From an uncultured Saprospiraceae bacterium (GTDB taxonomy: Bacteria; Bacteroidota; Bacteroidia; Chitinophagales; Saprospiraceae), in NCBI GenBank assembly GCA_937950315.1, contig CALFDU010000001.1:62001-126000 (forward strand): a stretch of DNA of 64,000 bases. The letters run 5' to 3'. Both the position numbers and the translations under genes were made by a program. Below the pieces are notes generated by a model. It made no database searches, was not told where the DNA came from, and saw only the letters and a list, made by a program, of their open reading frames with translations. Of this stretch, positions 18,544 through 30,917 are shown piece by piece. The first letter of the stretch is position 1. Each line of letters opens with the position of its first letter.

Positions 18544-19506
18544 TTACGGATTGATGTAGTGTTTTAGTATTTGAATCTGGTTGTTTTGTTCAATTTGAAC
18601 CATGATCAATCCTGAATGGTTGACATCTATCAATACTTGATTTCCTTCTCTCACAAAATTGATGGTTTGGCCATTTGAATTGTAGCATGTAATTCTGGCA
18701 TTGGTGTCTAACTCCTCAATGCTAAATTGGTTGTTTGAAGGATTGGGGGAAGTTTTTAGCCCAAGTTCAGTCGAAGTGTTTTCTGTCGAAGAAAGGCAAT
18801 TTATATCTCTTACGTATTCAAATGCGGTTCTTAGAATTTCATCGCGATTGGGAAAATCGATGGTGTGTCCGATGCCCTGCATCAGGTTTGTTTCCAAACA
18901 AGCTCCAGCTTCTGTGAGTTGCTCAACAGCAGGTGTAAATCTATTGGATACATTGTCATTGGAGCCATGAATGAGATACCAATTTTCATGGGTAGCATTG
19001 TGGGTGAGTGGAGCGATTTCTGAAGCTCCAGAGATTGCAGCGCCTATTGGAATAAATCCAGCAAACTCATCAACCCGCCTTAGGCCATAGCTGTAGACAG
19101 TACTTCCTCCTCTAGAAAAGCCAATCAGATATTTTTGAGATTCATCGATATTAAACCAAAGAGACATAGAGTCGATCAATGAAGAAGTGAATGCAGTGTC
19201 AATTGGGTCATCAATAGAACCATCTATTCCACCATCTGGGCAAGCCAAGATCAATTGATTTTCTTCAGCAAAATTAATCAATGTATCACGCCAAGATTGA
19301 GCATCCCATCTATTGGTATTGAATGGATGAAGACCGACCATCAATGGGTTGGCTTGGGTTTCATCATATGAGGACGGAACATAAATCGAATATTTCTTAT
19401 TGTCATCTGATTGAAAAGCATAATCGCCATCTATACTTTGTTGTGCCACTACCACGCTATTAAACATGAATATCAAGGCAACAAATAATAACTTGTTCAT
19501 CTTCAT
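18544..19506 (-). CDS. Secreted alpha/beta hydrolase with T9SS type A tail
   Basis: 320 residues with a signal peptide (cleavage near VVVAQQ, residue 21). The hydrolase fold resembles the feruloyl-esterase/PHB-depolymerase (LpqC-like) group: nucleophile Ser131 in GFSRGGS, and His214 in GIGHTIDFP as the catalytic His; Asp184 in HGSNDN is the candidate acid. Residues about 245-320 form a T9SS type A sorting domain: SPNPSNNQFSIE, a short strand pair, then a C-terminal ILKHYINP. The protein is therefore expected on the cell surface or released. An esterase acting on hemicellulose side groups would suit the nearby GH74 enzyme, but this is inference. Confidence 0.85.
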   Translation of the reverse strand: MKMNKLLFVALIFMFNSVVVAQQSIDGDYAFQSDDNKKYSIYVPSSYDETQANPLMVGLHPFNTNRWDAQSWRDTLINFAEENQLILACPDGGIDGSIDDPIDTAFTSSLIDSMSLWFNIDESQKYLIGFSRGGSTVYSYGLRRVDEFAGFIPIGAAISGASEIAPLTHNATHENWYLIHGSNDNVSNRFTPAVEQLTEAGACLETNLMQGIGHTIDFPNRDEILRTAFEYVRDINCLSSTENTSTELGLKTSPNPSNNQFSIEELDTNARITCYNSNGQTINFVREGNQVLIDVNHSGLIMVQIEQNNQIQILKHYINP

Positions 19507-19686: not shown

Positions 19687-22600
19687 TTACATTTTAATAA
19701 GTTTAAAATATTGTTCAAAGTCTTTGGAGTAACATCTTAAGAAATAGGTTCCAGCTGGATTATCATCGAGAGAAATAGTCGTTCGTTGTTTTGAGGCAGG
19801 AATTTCAGCTAGTTTAATCAGACTACCCAAATTATCGAAAATTTCAATTTGAATGGATTCAGTCCATTGCGTGTTTTCCGTTAATCCAATTATGAATTCA
19901 TCCTGTGTAGGATTTGGGAATATCTCAAACTCATTGCTGAGTACGTGATCTTGATTGCTTGATACTTCAAAATCTACCAAGATTTCTTCTTCATAAATAC
20001 AACTTCCATTTGAATCTGTTACAGCAATTATGTAATTGCCAGCCTCAAGATTGGTGAAGATATTGTCAGAACTAAAATTGGTTCCGTTATCTATAGAATA
20101 AGAGTAGGGTGGTTCTCCACCAGATGATTCAATAGTGATTGTTCCGTTGGGGTCACTTTGACTAGAAGAACTAGTGGTGCTTACTTCTGCACTCACAATG
20201 CAAAACAACTCTGAAGGGCAGAAGTTGATTTCTGTTTGGTCCATAAATTCGCCATTGTCAAATCCAATGAGGTCTCCATCTACATTGTATATAGAGATAT
20301 CTCCGAGACCAAATCCACAACAAATTCCATCTGAATAAGCATCTACTACTGTCAATGTGTAACAAGAATCATAACTCAAACAATAATCTGTATCAAAGAA
20401 AGTTATACCTTGGTTCAATTCTCCAGATTCTAGAATATTGTCGTCATTTTCATACGTCAAAAACCATGAAGTTTCTTGAGGGAAGTTATCTGGATTTATT
20501 TCTAAAGTTATAAATTCTTGCTCATTGTCTAAGTCAGTAGTGAAAGAAGAACTGTTGTTTGTATCAATCGCATCTTGACTATCATTTAGTTTGAGTAAGT
20601 TTAGCGTGATGACATTGTCTGTGGGTTGCAAATTTTGAGTTATATCAATGATAACTTCATCAGAACTCTCAAAAGGTATTCCAATACTTGCAGTTATTAT
20701 ATCTGTGCTGATCCCATTCACAACCACTTCTATTTCAGCACTTGTGAGTAAAGACGCTCCAAAGTTTTCGATGAGGGCTCTTGCCGCTAAGGTTTCTCCA
20801 CAATTTAATCTAAACAATTCACCAGTAATGGATCCTTCAATAGAATGTAGATTTCTGACAACGGTTGTCAAGGTGTCATTGGTGCTGAACCCATCTGTTG
20901 CTTGATCTACAACAACAGTGATGTCATAATCTCCGATAACAGATAAGTCAACAGGTGTTGTAAATTGATATTCTTGGGTGGTTTGTGGGCCTAGATTGTC
21001 GGAGATGCTTTGAGTTTCAATGAATACATCATCGACATAAAGACTAATTTCAAAATCAGACATGTCTCTTAGTCCTTCATTGGAAATGACAGCAGATACC
21101 AATTCATTGGTACCCAATAGGTCAGATGAAGTTGGTTGTGTCAATTCGGTAACCCCTAAATCAAAAGTTGCATTGATTTCTGCCCAAAAAGAAACCCATG
21201 GTCTAGCTTGCTTGATTATCAATTGATCATCAACGGTCACTTTGTATTCTATATCCATACCAAATCCTTCTGCTCCCACTACATCATATAGTTCTGCAAA
21301 TTCATCATGAATGACCCCAAGGTAATCACGCATTTGGTTTAAATATTGCTCGCCCATCACGAGCTGACCATTTGGTACTAGGTTAGAATTTCTTAAAACA
21401 AAGTAGCCTTCTTCTGGATCAATGTGTAAGATTAACTCCTCGGGAATTGAATTTGCATCAGGATTGGTGATCAAAGATTCACCAACTTGTGTATTTAGGT
21501 AAAAAGTATTTTCTGTTCCATAGATCGGGTCGATACTTACACCTACACCATTGGATTTCTCATCTTGGAAATTAGGATGACACAAAACGCCCATTGCCGC
21601 AATAAACTGATCTACCCTGTAAAATTCTCTTTCGTCATAAGCACGGAAATTCCACATACTAGCATATACCTGTTTAATGGATTTGGAAATATGTCCCTCA
21701 TCGAGGTGTTGGGTTTTGGAGGTATATAAACCCGCTCCGCTAAATCCAGGAAGGTCTTCGTTGTTGGTGCTCGATCGGCATCTAACCGCAGTACCTTCCG
21801 GAAATGAATCGTGCATTTCTTGTAAATCATCCAGCATCCATTGAGGCATATCAGCATCCTTGATATCGCGTCTAAAATCTTTTAGCATGTCTATGCGTAC
21901 TTCTAGATCTGCAATAAAATCTGGATCACTTAACATTTCTTCTGCTTCCTCGTAGAAACCATTGTACTTCATGAATTCATCGTAATAGTAAAAAGGTATA
22001 CCAAAACCATTGGGGATTGTTCCTTCTGGAAAACCAAAAGTTCTCATGGTAGCAACATTGGCACATTTAGCACCAAAGGCTGTCGACATCTCAAAGCCAA
22101 TCTCGTCCAATGGAAGAATTTCTGTCTGACTTAAGTCTCGTTCTGGTATTTGAGGTTCTGTAGGACGGATATTGTCGTACCATTCATTCACCTCTTCTTG
22201 AGTAGCTGCCCTAAGCGTATATTCTTGTGCTTCAACTTTGTAGTAAACAAAGCCATCTAACAAACTAGCAATGGCCGGATCGTCTAATGGATCTTTTATG
22301 TAAGCATTGGGCAGATTGTCTTGGATGGCCCTTAAGTTAACATGAGAAAGTGGCGTCTGTACTATAGATGTAATGATTCCTCCAACTCTAGGAAGTGAGT
22401 TGGGTAGAGCATCGTACAACACTATGTCTCTAGATCCTGGGTTTTCGTCTAATTGCATGTGTCGGAAGAATCCATATCCTTCTGATTCATTGAATGGAAT
22501 GTAGTCGATGTCTGCAAAATAAATTGATTCTAACACGACAGGAATTCTTGATCCAATGTAGTCGTTTTTGTATTCGTTTTCGTATATATTTTCTCCTCCA

Positions 22601-23397
22601 GAACCAACAAAGTGTTGCAAATTATTTTCCAGAAAAGGCATATTTGCAGCTAAAAGTTCATGCGTTTTTTGCACACGTGAAAATTCATACGTATCACCAA
22701 ATGAAAAATTGAACGAATAGGTGCCTATGACTCCGTTGTAGAAAATTTCATTTGGGTTGTAAACAACTTCACCGGTAACGACATCGTCCTGATATAAATT
22801 TAATCCTATTGTTGCCAAAAAAGAGTTATGGATAGCATGTGTAACACTGTTAATAAAAAATATTTCTGGCGTTGCAGAATCAATATTGACAATCGCAAAT
22901 TTTGCAAATTCTTGGTTGTTTAAGAATGGAGCCCATGGGATATCGGCTGTTACAACAGACATCTGTGAAAATGTTTCTGGAGAATCAATTACTGGTACTC
23001 CATCTATAATTGGAATTTGTCGCGCAAAATTCAACGGAGCATTTGTTGGCATACTGTTAAGCTCGGTGATGTCATCAATTCCATCATTGTCAAAATCTCC
23101 AGGGTTGTCAACAGGGTAAGCTGTTATGGTATAATTTTCTTCAGGAAAAGCTGCCAATGGTTCTGAAATAAACATTTTCCCATCTTCGCCCATTGTAATT
23201 GAAGTGATGGACTCATAGGCTTGATCTGGCTCATGCGTCGCAGATAATAGATAGTACATATCTGAACTTCCTTCTATTTCCAGTTGAACTTGGTCAAAGG
23301 GATTCACACTATAGGATAAAATTTCCACTTCTTGTGCCGTTGATAATTGGCTGGTTAGAAAAAATATAACCAATAGAAGTAAAGATGGATGTTTCAT
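19687..23397 (-). CDS. Exported glucan/water-dikinase-like protein: phosphohistidine and PPDK ATP-grasp domains with T9SS tail
   Basis: 1236 residues. Signal peptide to about 21 (STAQE); calcium-type motif DFDNDGIDD at 101-109; unassigned beta-rich region 130-320; a swivel-like segment around 325-395 with His352 in TPLSHVNLRA, similar to the LSHVSVRAR phosphohistidine motif of plant glucan, water dikinases; a PPDK_N/PEP-synthase ATP-grasp domain at about 425-737 with AVRCRSSTNNEDLPGFSGAG (537-556), VYASMWNFRA (577-586), VGESLITNP (638-646) and DIEYKV...IIKQARP (715-732), so the nucleotide and Mg residues seem intact. Then CARDB-like beta sandwiches (740-930), a further beta domain, a SprB-like repeat (GGEPPYSYSIDNG) and a type A tail (FPNPTQDEF onward). 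There is no PEP-utiliser TIM barrel, so it cannot be an ordinary PEP synthase or PPDK. The acceptor is unknown. Confidence 0.8.
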   Translation of the reverse strand: MKHPSLLLLVIFFLTSQLSTAQEVEILSYSVNPFDQVQLEIEGSSDMYYLLSATHEPDQAYESITSITMGEDGKMFISEPLAAFPEENYTITAYPVDNPGDFDNDGIDDITELNSMPTNAPLNFARQIPIIDGVPVIDSPETFSQMSVVTADIPWAPFLNNQEFAKFAIVNIDSATPEIFFINSVTHAIHNSFLATIGLNLYQDDVVTGEVVYNPNEIFYNGVIGTYSFNFSFGDTYEFSRVQKTHELLAANMPFLENNLQHFVGSGGENIYENEYKNDYIGSRIPVVLESIYFADIDYIPFNESEGYGFFRHMQLDENPGSRDIVLYDALPNSLPRVGGIITSIVQTPLSHVNLRAIQDNLPNAYIKDPLDDPAIASLLDGFVYYKVEAQEYTLRAATQEEVNEWYDNIRPTEPQIPERDLSQTEILPLDEIGFEMSTAFGAKCANVATMRTFGFPEGTIPNGFGIPFYYYDEFMKYNGFYEEAEEMLSDPDFIADLEVRIDMLKDFRRDIKDADMPQWMLDDLQEMHDSFPEGTAVRCRSSTNNEDLPGFSGAGLYTSKTQHLDEGHISKSIKQVYASMWNFRAYDEREFYRVDQFIAAMGVLCHPNFQDEKSNGVGVSIDPIYGTENTFYLNTQVGESLITNPDANSIPEELILHIDPEEGYFVLRNSNLVPNGQLVMGEQYLNQMRDYLGVIHDEFAELYDVVGAEGFGMDIEYKVTVDDQLIIKQARPWVSFWAEINATFDLGVTELTQPTSSDLLGTNELVSAVISNEGLRDMSDFEISLYVDDVFIETQSISDNLGPQTTQEYQFTTPVDLSVIGDYDITVVVDQATDGFSTNDTLTTVVRNLHSIEGSITGELFRLNCGETLAARALIENFGASLLTSAEIEVVVNGISTDIITASIGIPFESSDEVIIDITQNLQPTDNVITLNLLKLNDSQDAIDTNNSSSFTTDLDNEQEFITLEINPDNFPQETSWFLTYENDDNILESGELNQGITFFDTDYCLSYDSCYTLTVVDAYSDGICCGFGLGDISIYNVDGDLIGFDNGEFMDQTEINFCPSELFCIVSAEVSTTSSSSQSDPNGTITIESSGGEPPYSYSIDNGTNFSSDNIFTNLEAGNYIIAVTDSNGSCIYEEEILVDFEVSSNQDHVLSNEFEIFPNPTQDEFIIGLTENTQWTESIQIEIFDNLGSLIKLAEIPASKQRTTISLDDNPAGTYFLRCYSKDFEQYFKLIKM

Positions 23398-27920: not shown

Positions 27921-30917
27921 CTACAGTCGTACGATTCTATCCGTGATGACAAACTCTTGCTTGCCTCCTTTGATCAAAAGAAAATATACTCCATTAGGAA
28001 TATCCGTCACATCGATTTCATTACTGCCTCCATTCATTTTCTGAGAAAGAATGAGCTTTCCATTTACATCGATAAAGGTGGTAGTAAATGGAATGTTTTC
28101 ATTCACATCAATAAAGATTTTTTCACGAACAGGGTTGGGGTAGATATTAAAAATGAGACCATCGATTTCGTGAATGTCTGATAGGTCTGCTCCATCACAA
28201 TCTTCATCGATATCATTGTCAAGTATTTCTGGTGCACCAGGGAATACCGTGGCAGAAGTATCATCACAATCGCCTCCTTGCGTAATGGATCCTGTTGGTT
28301 GTTCGCAGGCAGAAATGGGATTCATCTCATCGCCAAAACCATCCATATCAACATCTGGATAGTATGTAAGGAAAGACAATCCTTCATCTATGGTTCCATT
28401 GCAATTGTTGTCCAGGTCGTCACATATTTCAGGAGCACCCGGATAAATATTTGCGGAAGCATCATCACAATCTCCACCTTCAGTAACGTAGCCCATCGGT
28501 TGTGAACAAGATGCAATCATCGTATTGTCATCACCGAATCCATCTGCATCATTGTCGAGAAAATAGCTAGTCAATGTAAATCCTTCATCAATCATTCCAT
28601 CGCAATTGTTGTCCACGCCATCGCAAATTTCTGTGGCACTAGGGTTGATGGATGCATCAGTGTCGTTGCAATCCTCAACAGAATTGAAGCCGTCTTGATC
28701 TTCGTCTATGATGGAGTCTACACCATCGCAGTTTTCATCTATTCCATTGTTGGGATTTTCTGGAGCATCAGGATTTATTAGTTCGTTGTTGTCATCACAA
28801 TCTTGGTTGTTGTTGATATAACCAACGGGCATGAGACAAGCAGTGAGGAATATGTCGGGATTACCAAAACCATCGTTGTCAAGGTCTTGGAACCATACAT
28901 CGGTTTCAAGCACGGTGGGGTCTTGGTCGTCAATCAATCCGTCGCAATTGTCATCGATGCCATTGCACAATTCTTGAGCATTTAGGTTTACTTCTGGATT
29001 GGTATCATCACAATCAAAGCTGTCAGATGTATAGCCTTGTGGCATACTACAGGATAGGACTGTAGCAGTTGGATTTCCATAACCATCTCCGTCGTTGTCT
29101 TGATACCAGATCGTGGCATTTTGTAGATCAGGATCATTGTCATCGATCATACCATTACAATTGTCGTCAATACCATTGCACATTTCGTCAGCACCAGGAT
29201 TGATCATTGGGTTACTGTCATCGCAGTCAAGCGCTTCAAGAGAGGTGCCTGGTGGCTGCTGGCAAGCTACTACAAAATTGTTGGGATCCCCAAATCCATC
29301 CATGTCTGAATCTACATAGAATGTAGTCATGGCAATTCCTTCATCGATCATTCCATTGCAATTATTATCTACTTGGTCACACAGCTCAGGTGCTCCTGGA
29401 AATATGCTTGGGTCATTGTCATTGCAATCAACATCAGAAGTAAAAGAATCACCGTCGGCGTCTTCTAATTGTTCCACGCCGAAGGTGAAGTCAATAACAA
29501 CTGGAAGGTGATCGGAAGCAAGGGTAGTTGTGTTGGATGCTAAATTGTAATTGCTTAGTTCTGTAGCAGTGAGATATTCAGTGTCAAGCACAAATCCATT
29601 CCGTGCTTGCATAACAGATCCTGTATAAAAAAGCAGATCTAGTTTGCCAGGATGATAACTTCCATTGGGGTTATTCCAGGTATAATTTCCTGGAAAACCT
29701 GTGACTCCAGGATCGGCGTCTTCCAGAATTGAACCATCCCAGTCAGGAGCAAAATCTTGGCCGTACGTATTGTTGTCGACGATATCTCCGTTGATGAAAC
29801 TGTCGTAGTTCTGTCTTAGTCCGACCATGTTGAAGTCTCCTGTGATGATGGTGGGTGCATCTTCAGGATATGAAAATCCGGTCTGTGGTGAAGCTTCTTT
29901 GTCTCTGAGAACCGAAAGAAGATTGTCGATTTCATCTTGGCGCTGTGCGTCATTGGCGCAGCAAGGTAGGTGGACATTGTACACAATGATGGGTTCATCG
30001 TTTTCGTCGAAGAGCAAAAATACTGCATTGCCATCAATGTTGTCCCAAGCTTCGATTTCGTATCGAGTTGCTACGATGATATCAGGATTAGATTTGGCAA
30101 CATCCCAGTCTTGATTGCTAGGGAGAGGAAGCACATTATTGAGAATATTTCTTACCTCATTAGCCGATGTTCCATTGACCTCTTGCAATGCAATAACGTC
30201 TGGATTCATGGCAACCAATATTTTTTCAAATTCTTCTTGTCGATCGGGGGAAGTGATTCCATCATTGAGAACATTGTAGCTCAAAAATCGAGTGTGGTTT
30301 GGGTCTTTATCTAGATTGTATGCTGATTCAAAGGTAGGATTGTTGCTCATCGTGTATTGAAAGCCTCCGCTAGTATTTGGAACCAGATCACCAGTGCTAT
30401 CATTTTCTACCAAAATAGATATGGTGTTTGCCATCGTAGCAGAAAACCCACCTTCTGCAACAGAACGGTTTAGTGCCATCTCAAATACGGTAGAAGTAAC
30501 CGTAGGAGAACTTAATGCACCGATCGGATTATGGTTGACTTGGATAGAAGAGCCATCGGGATTGTTGATAAAACCCCTTCTTGCGCCATAATAATAGGTG
30601 ATTTCTGCTCCTATTCCACCTCTTGGAAAACCAGTATTGGGGTTGTTGTCTGCATCGATGAATATCGAAATGTCCTCTTCATCTTGCATATCAAATTCAA
30701 AACTAGCCTCAAGCAAAATATAGAGTCTCTCAGCATCATTGGATACCGATACCTTCATGATATCCAACTCTTGCGAATCTCCTGCGTCGTCAATGGAAAA
30801 ATCTGAATTATTCCAATCCGTAAATGTTCCATCAATAGATTTAGGCAATACCTGGCCATTGATTTGCGGTACGAATAAGAATAAACTACTTAGAAATATT
30901 ATTACGGAAGCTTTCAA
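27921..30917 (-). CDS. Secreted endonuclease/exonuclease/phosphatase with seven MopE-type repeats and T9SS tail
   Basis: 998 residues, opening with TTG and a signal peptide (cleavage near INGQV, residue 22). Residues about 27-190 are a CBM9/DOMON-like beta-sandwich. The EEP hydrolase domain (about 208-478) has its catalytic residues: Asn215 in SYNV, Glu246 in ALQEV, His316 in NVHLP, Asp361 and Asn363 in TGDFN, and Asp469/His470 in ASDHLPVV. Seven MopE-like units (about 485-915), each with D-C-D-D...P-G-A-x-E-x-C-D/N...D-N-N-C-x-G, come next; they are expected to bind calcium. A type A sorting domain (IYPNPVREKIFIDV onward) ends the protein. Likely an extracellular nuclease or phosphodiesterase for DNA or phosphate use. 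Confidence 0.88.
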   Translation of the reverse strand: MKASVIIFLSSLFLFVPQINGQVLPKSIDGTFTDWNNSDFSIDDAGDSQELDIMKVSVSNDAERLYILLEASFEFDMQDEEDISIFIDADNNPNTGFPRGGIGAEITYYYGARRGFINNPDGSSIQVNHNPIGALSSPTVTSTVFEMALNRSVAEGGFSATMANTISILVENDSTGDLVPNTSGGFQYTMSNNPTFESAYNLDKDPNHTRFLSYNVLNDGITSPDRQEEFEKILVAMNPDVIALQEVNGTSANEVRNILNNVLPLPSNQDWDVAKSNPDIIVATRYEIEAWDNIDGNAVFLLFDENDEPIIVYNVHLPCCANDAQRQDEIDNLLSVLRDKEASPQTGFSYPEDAPTIITGDFNMVGLRQNYDSFINGDIVDNNTYGQDFAPDWDGSILEDADPGVTGFPGNYTWNNPNGSYHPGKLDLLFYTGSVMQARNGFVLDTEYLTATELSNYNLASNTTTLASDHLPVVIDFTFGVEQLEDADGDSFTSDVDCNDNDPSIFPGAPELCDQVDNNCNGMIDEGIAMTTFYVDSDMDGFGDPNNFVVACQQPPGTSLEALDCDDSNPMINPGADEMCNGIDDNCNGMIDDNDPDLQNATIWYQDNDGDGYGNPTATVLSCSMPQGYTSDSFDCDDTNPEVNLNAQELCNGIDDNCDGLIDDQDPTVLETDVWFQDLDNDGFGNPDIFLTACLMPVGYINNNQDCDDNNELINPDAPENPNNGIDENCDGVDSIIDEDQDGFNSVEDCNDTDASINPSATEICDGVDNNCDGMIDEGFTLTSYFLDNDADGFGDDNTMIASCSQPMGYVTEGGDCDDASANIYPGAPEICDDLDNNCNGTIDEGLSFLTYYPDVDMDGFGDEMNPISACEQPTGSITQGGDCDDTSATVFPGAPEILDNDIDEDCDGADLSDIHEIDGLIFNIYPNPVREKIFIDVNENIPFTTTFIDVNGKLILSQKMNGGSNEIDVTDIPNGVYFLLIKGGKQEFVITDRIVRL

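Follow-up and report, generated by a model that had tools for sequence, protein, structure and literature searches.

Does any bacterium carry out dikinase chemistry outside its cytoplasm? The question is raised by a gene in a 64,000-nucleotide stretch of DNA from an uncultured Saprospiraceae bacterium (GenBank assembly GCA_937950315.1, contig CALFDU010000001.1, positions 62,001 to 126,000; this whole stretch is called the window below). The gene lies at 19687..23397 on the minus strand, with an ATG start and a stop codon at 19687-19689, and would encode a 1236-residue protein in which a swivel-like histidine domain precedes an ATP-grasp domain of the pyruvate phosphate dikinase (PPDK) type, the two being flanked by a signal-like N-terminal leader and a C-terminal sorting domain for the type IX secretion system (T9SS). 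The most likely reading, which we favor with moderate confidence, is that this is an active exported dikinase working by the steps proposed below. The reading rests on export signals, the ATP-grasp fold, domain order, residue conservation and a phosphatase linkage in relatives, all of them obtained by computation. To our knowledge, dikinases of the PPDK-type fold come from the cell interior only, and the top-ranked results of broad searches of the open-licence literature included no description of an exported dikinase of this type. If the reading is true, the spread of this family, tagged for export and intact in its catalytic residues, over many Bacteroidota records would mean that ATP is spent outside the cytoplasm.

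Export signals and domain order

The frame is open throughout 19687..23397 on the minus strand, the plus strand there being full of stops. Residues 1-21 (23335..23397) resemble a signal peptide when judged by eye, and Gln22, which follows directly, is invariant among the aligned sequences reaching that position. Residues 1159-1236 (19690..19923) make up a T9SS type A sorting domain, recognized by Por_Secre_tail (PF18962; residues 1159-1232, E = 1.1e-12) with TIGR04183 in agreement (E = 3.9e-12). A preliminary description of this locus had ascribed a leader and a type A tail to the 1236-residue product; the tail is borne out by these models, a signal-like leader is seen on inspection, and the view that the protein is exported as T9SS type A cargo is supported by these sequence features.

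Between the signals, the PPDK-type ATP-grasp domain (residues 426-738; 21184..22122) is matched by PPDK_N (PF01326) at residues 441-734, well above the curated cut-off (E = 1.9e-20; 73.8 versus 27 bits). It is preceded by the swivel-like phosphohistidine domain, delimited by alignments and profile comparisons (residues 300-425; 22123..22500), and followed by a CARDB domain (residues 746-833; 20899..21162). The motif LSHVNLRA begins at residue 350 and contains the proposed phosphocarrier His352 (codon 22342..22344); AVRCRSS begins at 537 (Arg539, Arg541), DIEYKV at 715 (Glu717) and QARP at 730 (Gln730), so that these five residues sit at the numbers first given for them. The order described at that time, a histidine segment ahead of ATP-grasp with no phosphoenolpyruvate (PEP) barrel, also holds. 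A search for the PEP-utilizer mobile domain, suggested in the same description, came up empty: Pfam models of PEP-utilizers, the PEP barrel and glucan, water dikinase (GWD) gave no match in the whole protein at E ≤ 0.1 or in the histidine segment alone at E ≤ 10.

Three known systems invite comparison. PEP synthase and PPDK share with the window protein the PPDK_N domain and, by way of cousin families and a pooled profile (see below), swivel homology. They differ in that in PEP-synthase-type genes from our searches ATP-grasp leads and is followed by 386-504 residues or more (lower bounds, several loci being cut). The C-terminal barrel of this family had no Pfam match in the window protein (E ≤ 0.1), where CARDB comes after ATP-grasp, and NCBIfam PEP synthase models match the protein far under their cut-offs. 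The rifampin phosphotransferase RPH likewise combines a PPDK-type ATP-grasp with a swivel histidine domain; its model NF041857 scored 40.7 bits against a cut-off of 999 and matched the ATP-grasp part only. In RPH, His825 lies in the C-terminal region and a rifampin-binding domain is present (PMC4844700), whereas in the window protein the histidine domain comes ahead of ATP-grasp, export signals are present and Pfam finds no rifampin-binding domain.

The third system comprises plant GWD and phosphoglucan, water dikinase (PWD), in which a phosphohistidine domain is followed by ATP-grasp. The window protein shares this order and differs in its T9SS tail, in having no starch-binding domain (no carbohydrate-binding match by Pfam at E ≤ 0.1) and in giving no match to the phosphohistidine model PF22973 (GWD1_pHisD) in its histidine segment at E ≤ 10. 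The GWD-like order first proposed stands but membership in the GWD family by Pfam does not, PF22973 being absent from the window protein and below cut-off even in its cousins, whose histidine domains it finds weakly: in 395 genomes there were 8 matches at E ≤ 0.01, none over cut-off, six of them in open frames of the cousin families of about 625 and 980 residues and two in frames broken by stops. The chemistry proposed for GWD is autophosphorylation of a histidine and transfer of the β-phosphate (PMC7569903), and from sequence comparison a mechanism of this kind is plausible for the window protein.

Catalytic residues and the histidine domain

Relatives were collected by a pattern scan of the GTDB species collection with two patterns, so that the same gene may be counted twice among the at least 580 matched stretches, at least 576 of which encode relatives. 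The 80 loci kept come from records labelled Saprospiraceae, Chitinophagales, Flavobacteriales, Flavobacteriaceae, Crocinitomicaceae and others, with one Euryarchaeota, and the relatives they encode have a core identity of 72-82% to the window protein. When the window protein was aligned with 81 frames from these loci (82 sequences), His352, Lys444, Arg539, Arg541, Glu717 and Gln730 were invariant in all covering sequences (81 of 81 for His352), and block conservation was 0.97-1.00 at residues 331-360 (0.98, 0.97) and 541-555. Five of these residues, all except Lys444, had been singled out in the preliminary description for a conservation check, with loss of His352 or of the Mg-binding residues in close homologues named as refuting; every covering sequence keeps all five. 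A complete frame was present in 67 of the 80 loci. Among 30 full-length members scanned with Pfam (the window protein and 29 of the 58 complete relatives no longer than 1480 residues), all 30 carry PPDK_N, CARDB and Por_Secre_tail, 25 carry a SprB repeat (residues 1082-1107, 20077..20154, in the window protein) and 8 a lamin tail domain.

The record labelled Euryarchaeota (L081) clearly encodes a member of the family, T9SS tail included; the label probably reflects an error in binning or naming. At another locus (L049) the dikinase-like gene is present in two tandem copies on one contig. Scans of viral contigs with the window family and the 980-residue cousin family as queries found no relatives, and the single match in a plasmid scan was a Halorussus PEP synthase.

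Structure prediction points in the same direction as the Pfam match. A first model (residues 23-745) was built from 77 sequences, 5 of the 81 frames being omitted as too short; its core was poorly modelled (pLDDT 69.7, pTM 0.47), yet its Foldseek match to RPH was already 1.1e-10. As the catalytic core was not reliable enough, a second model (residues 127-740; pLDDT 78.6, pTM 0.65) was made from 52 of the 77 usable relatives plus 22 PEP synthase rows (from 22 of 41 viral-contig loci), rows that may bias it toward the PEP synthase fold. RPH was its best match (Foldseek 1.4e-12; Z 26.7 over 286 residues), closely followed by PEP synthase (3.1e-12; Z 25.7 over 284 residues). An ATP-grasp fold for residues 426-738 is supported by this model, and the concern raised at the outset, that the predicted fold might have no ATP-grasp cleft, is answered accordingly.

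The catalytic positions can be placed on RPH by a profile alignment to the PDB entry, with numbering transferred by hand: Lys444, Arg541 and Ser560 correspond to RPH Lys22, Arg117 and Thr136, the first two being the same residue and the third a serine in place of threonine. The same three positions align with all 22 PEP synthases used, which also have threonine at the Ser560 position, and so do Glu717 and Gln730. In a study of RPH, Lys22Ala abolished activity, Arg117Ala and Thr136Val lost drug resistance and drug modification with ATP splitting kept, and Glu297Ala remained active (PMC4844700). By these likenesses, the window protein would be catalytically active.

Further evidence comes from proteins of the same layout outside the family. 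One cousin family (p980, about 980 residues, in Bacteroidota) has a signal-like leader, a histidine domain and then a C-terminal ATP-grasp, with the histidine and ATP-grasp residues shared; it differs in its identity of about 30%, in ending some 30 residues past ATP-grasp, hence without a T9SS tail, and in the cassette that surrounds its gene (see below). A second (p625, about 625-660 residues; 32% identity to the window protein at locus L013) also has a histidine domain followed by a terminal ATP-grasp; here ATP-grasp is the protein end, so that T9SS tail and CARDB are both missing, and the gene neighbors are others. Aligned cousins have only a short tail after ATP-grasp and keep the positions of the histidine, Arg541, Glu717 and Gln730. 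In a tree of 50 ATP-grasp rows, from which six duplicate or partial rows had been removed, the 34 histidine-first rows were separated from the 16 PEP-synthase-type rows by a branch with support of 100/99, and the window's T9SS group formed one side of a branch supported at 100/98; the program warned of long branches meeting, so the deeper joins are less sure. Genome searches also found shorter paralogues of about 830-840 residues. The window's own genome (G000) has one of them outside the window, of 841 residues and 62% core identity (contig C83, L134:6957-9479).

The histidine domains of these families resemble one another: the window type and the 625-residue type match at 99.5% profile probability, and each matches the 980-residue type (70.9% and 89.9%, respectively). 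The 980-residue type in turn matches the PEP synthase swivel at 50.2%, or at 88.1% in a run without the global-alignment flag; its score of 39.1 exceeds the maximum of 30.4 from column shuffles. When the secreted histidine domains were pooled, they aligned with the PEP synthase swivel histidine on histidine over 69 columns with a score of 30.9, whereas none of 100 column shuffles scored above 23.5. Before the first profile comparison, a motif filter removed L015 (one of 27), and 4 of the 48 rows of PEP-synthase type were left out as well.

A domain of dikinase descent need not transfer phosphate, and the window protein might use it for binding or regulation, in a structural or nucleotide-sensing role. 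The cell-surface setting, with no known ATP source, would suit such a role, as would the adhesion-type CARDB and SprB parts, and the structure search did not confirm the swivel fold, the matches of the second model hardly covering the histidine domain. The catalytic positions, however, are invariant in covering sequences and are common to distant subfamilies and to PEP synthases. This invariance makes a decayed binding domain, which the preliminary description had named as its alternative, less likely, and we regard the binding-only explanation as decidedly improbable.

Proposed mechanism and a phosphatase in relatives

We favor an active exported dikinase, and propose that it would work as follows. 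The leader would carry the protein across the inner membrane and the type IX system across the outer membrane. ATP-grasp would bind Mg-ATP through Lys444, Arg541, Ser560 and Glu717. His352, on its swivel-like domain, would swing in and accept the β-phosphate, AMP and inorganic phosphate leaving, and would then swing out and hand the phosphate to an acceptor held by the N-terminal or middle region. The likeliest acceptor would be a glycan or some other polymer of the surface. Two regions precede the histidine domain. Residues 22-126 (23020..23334) are predicted with good confidence (block mean pLDDT about 83-96) as a β-rich domain with an acidic loop, D101-x-D103-x-D105...D109 (23071..23097), which is invariant where covered and which we take to resemble a calcium site. 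Residues 127-299 (22501..23019) are modelled as an α/β region with no family assigned and may be the acceptor-binding part.

A handle on the acceptor is offered by a gene of the histidine phosphatase superfamily, encoding about 175 residues, that lies beside or near the dikinase gene in 45 of the 80 loci: directly upstream on the same strand in 40, directly downstream on the opposite strand in three and one gene further off in two. The next commonest neighbor family occurs in 8 of the 80 loci (flank lengths vary). Most of the 45 phosphatases have a signal- or lipoprotein-like leader, and the one scanned for it matches PF00300 (E = 4.9e-12). In this phosphatase-linked branch, the exported-looking partner may reverse or limit the modification made by the dikinase. 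Models for SixA (TIGR00249), cobC and PspA all scored far under cut-off in the two phosphatases scanned (21.5 and 25.1 versus 74.5 bits for TIGR00249).

Co-occurrence across genomes was assessed with an alignment of 23 of the 45 phosphatases. Among 42 genomes from the order of one relative (G490), the kinase is present in two and a close phosphatase (E about 1e-77) in the same two, which may be close relatives of each other; there was one further, distant phosphatase match (7.9e-29). Among 395 genomes of the phylum, the single phosphatase match at the 1e-35 level (G164, 5.5e-36) is not among the genomes listed with a kinase match, and the window's own genome had none at that level; it has a diverged phosphatase on a different contig. 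In 37 of 44 kinase genomes there is a phosphatase match at 1e-5, 12 of these at 1.5e-64 or below, 24 from 8e-41 to 1.4e-22 and one at 4e-6. Loci with no phosphatase are mostly labelled Saprospiraceae or Chitinophagales (L053, L085, L087 and L091 are labelled otherwise), and one locus labelled Saprospiraceae (L103) carries the gene. The linkage is firm in one branch of the relatives and says nothing direct about the window.

Several findings weigh against an active exported dikinase in the window: (i) of the 69 relatives' loci that extend over 900 bases upstream, 29 lack the phosphatase and 40 hold it, and no phosphatase gene lies beside the window gene; (ii) a diverged phosphatase (E ≤ 1e-5) is found in 26 of the window genome's 60 relatives, namely in 5 of the 10 whose kinase match is strong (E ≤ 1e-55) and in 21 of the other 50, which is no tracking of the kinase, so that we dropped co-occurrence as evidence in the window's own clade; (iii) taken alone, the histidine domains of the window type and of the 625-residue type have next to no match to the PEP synthase swivel (0.1% and 0.6% probability), and the swivel homology suggested for the window type runs by way of the 980-residue cousins and the pooled profile; (iv) model confidence is low across the His352 segment; (v) that Glu717 is conserved says less about activity, since its RPH counterpart Glu297 is dispensable for catalysis (PMC4844700); (vi) no acceptor-binding domain is recognized in the window protein; and (vii) no ATP source is known, there being no match to a TLC-type transporter in its genome or in 27 others with the T9SS-type gene, and the Km for ATP of a relative, RPH, is 8.4 µM (PMC4844700).

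The sixth of these would be expected if the final acceptor were water, the protein being an exported ATP-consuming enzyme that converts scavenged ATP or other nucleotides to AMP and phosphate, with the phosphatase aiding phosphate capture and no polymer being phosphorylated. No acceptor domain was recognized in any of the members scanned, and the phosphatase neighbor suits phosphate scavenging. Simpler exported nucleotidases exist, however, and conservation in the protein is among its highest in the histidine domain with its motif, seemingly beyond what hydrolysis would need. RPH variants unable to modify the drug are reported to split ATP still (PMC4844700), which speaks for water as an acceptor; on balance we consider this explanation unlikely.

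A kinase that is active on protein, for example on T9SS cargo or adhesins and not on a glycan, is another candidate. The dikinases known to us use small molecules or glucans as acceptors, and the far-below-cut-off scores for SixA, cobC and PspA give no backing to a protein substrate. In its favor is the superfamily of the relatives' neighbor (PF00300, in one member), which includes SixA, a protein phosphohistidine phosphatase (PMC6282199). We think a protein acceptor improbable, and continue to favor an active exported dikinase with a glycan or other surface polymer as its target.

A broader proposal is an extracellular phosphorylation cycle: the T9SS-exported dikinase would use extracytoplasmic ATP on surface or foreign polysaccharide and the exported phosphatase would remove the phosphate, a counterpart of the plant pair of GWD and phosphoglucan phosphatase, with the cassette of the 980-residue cousins as a second system fed by its own ATP/ADP transporter. 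We put this forward tentatively and regard it as doubtful in its full extent.

ATP supply and neighboring genes

If a lead on ATP supply is to be had, it comes from that cassette. A TLC ATP/ADP transporter-like protein of about 940 residues with HEAT repeats is encoded nearby in 8 of 9 p980 loci, as are beta-lactamase2-like proteins of about 420 residues (8 of 9) and 300-340 residues (7 of 9). The cassette of dikinase-like, TLC-type and two beta-lactamase2-like genes is seen at L144-L149, L152 and L153 (for example L148:1457-9542), in genomes of four family codes. The TLC model itself matched in the L144 and L148 genes and in four such places genome-wide, the remaining assignments resting on BLAST to L148 and one gene being cut at a contig end. 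All four p980 genomes given have a TLC-type transporter, versus none of the 28 T9SS-type genomes. This distribution makes it an ATP-transport lead for the cousin and no answer for the window protein, and we rejected it as the ATP source of the window organism, whose genome has no match. Bacterial ATP release is, by its title, the subject of a review (PMC7432876).

The surroundings of the window gene had been described as secreted hemicellulose-type enzymes, which holds only in part. Its neighbors comprise a BNR-repeat/F510_1955-like protein, an M28 peptidase, a CHU_C-tailed protein and an esterase-like protein with a T9SS-type tail. Besides the phosphatase, no neighbor cluster recurs in over 8 of the 80 loci, and for that reason the hemicellulose idea was dropped. 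The esterase-like protein (18544-19506, minus strand) lies directly downstream on the same strand; its T9SS-type tail scores 24.9 bits, just below the Pfam cut-off of 27, and it weakly matches polyhydroxyalkanoate depolymerase models. Also on the minus strand, 27921-30917 encodes a protein that combines an Exo_endo_phos domain, seven metal-binding repeats of the MopE type and a T9SS tail.

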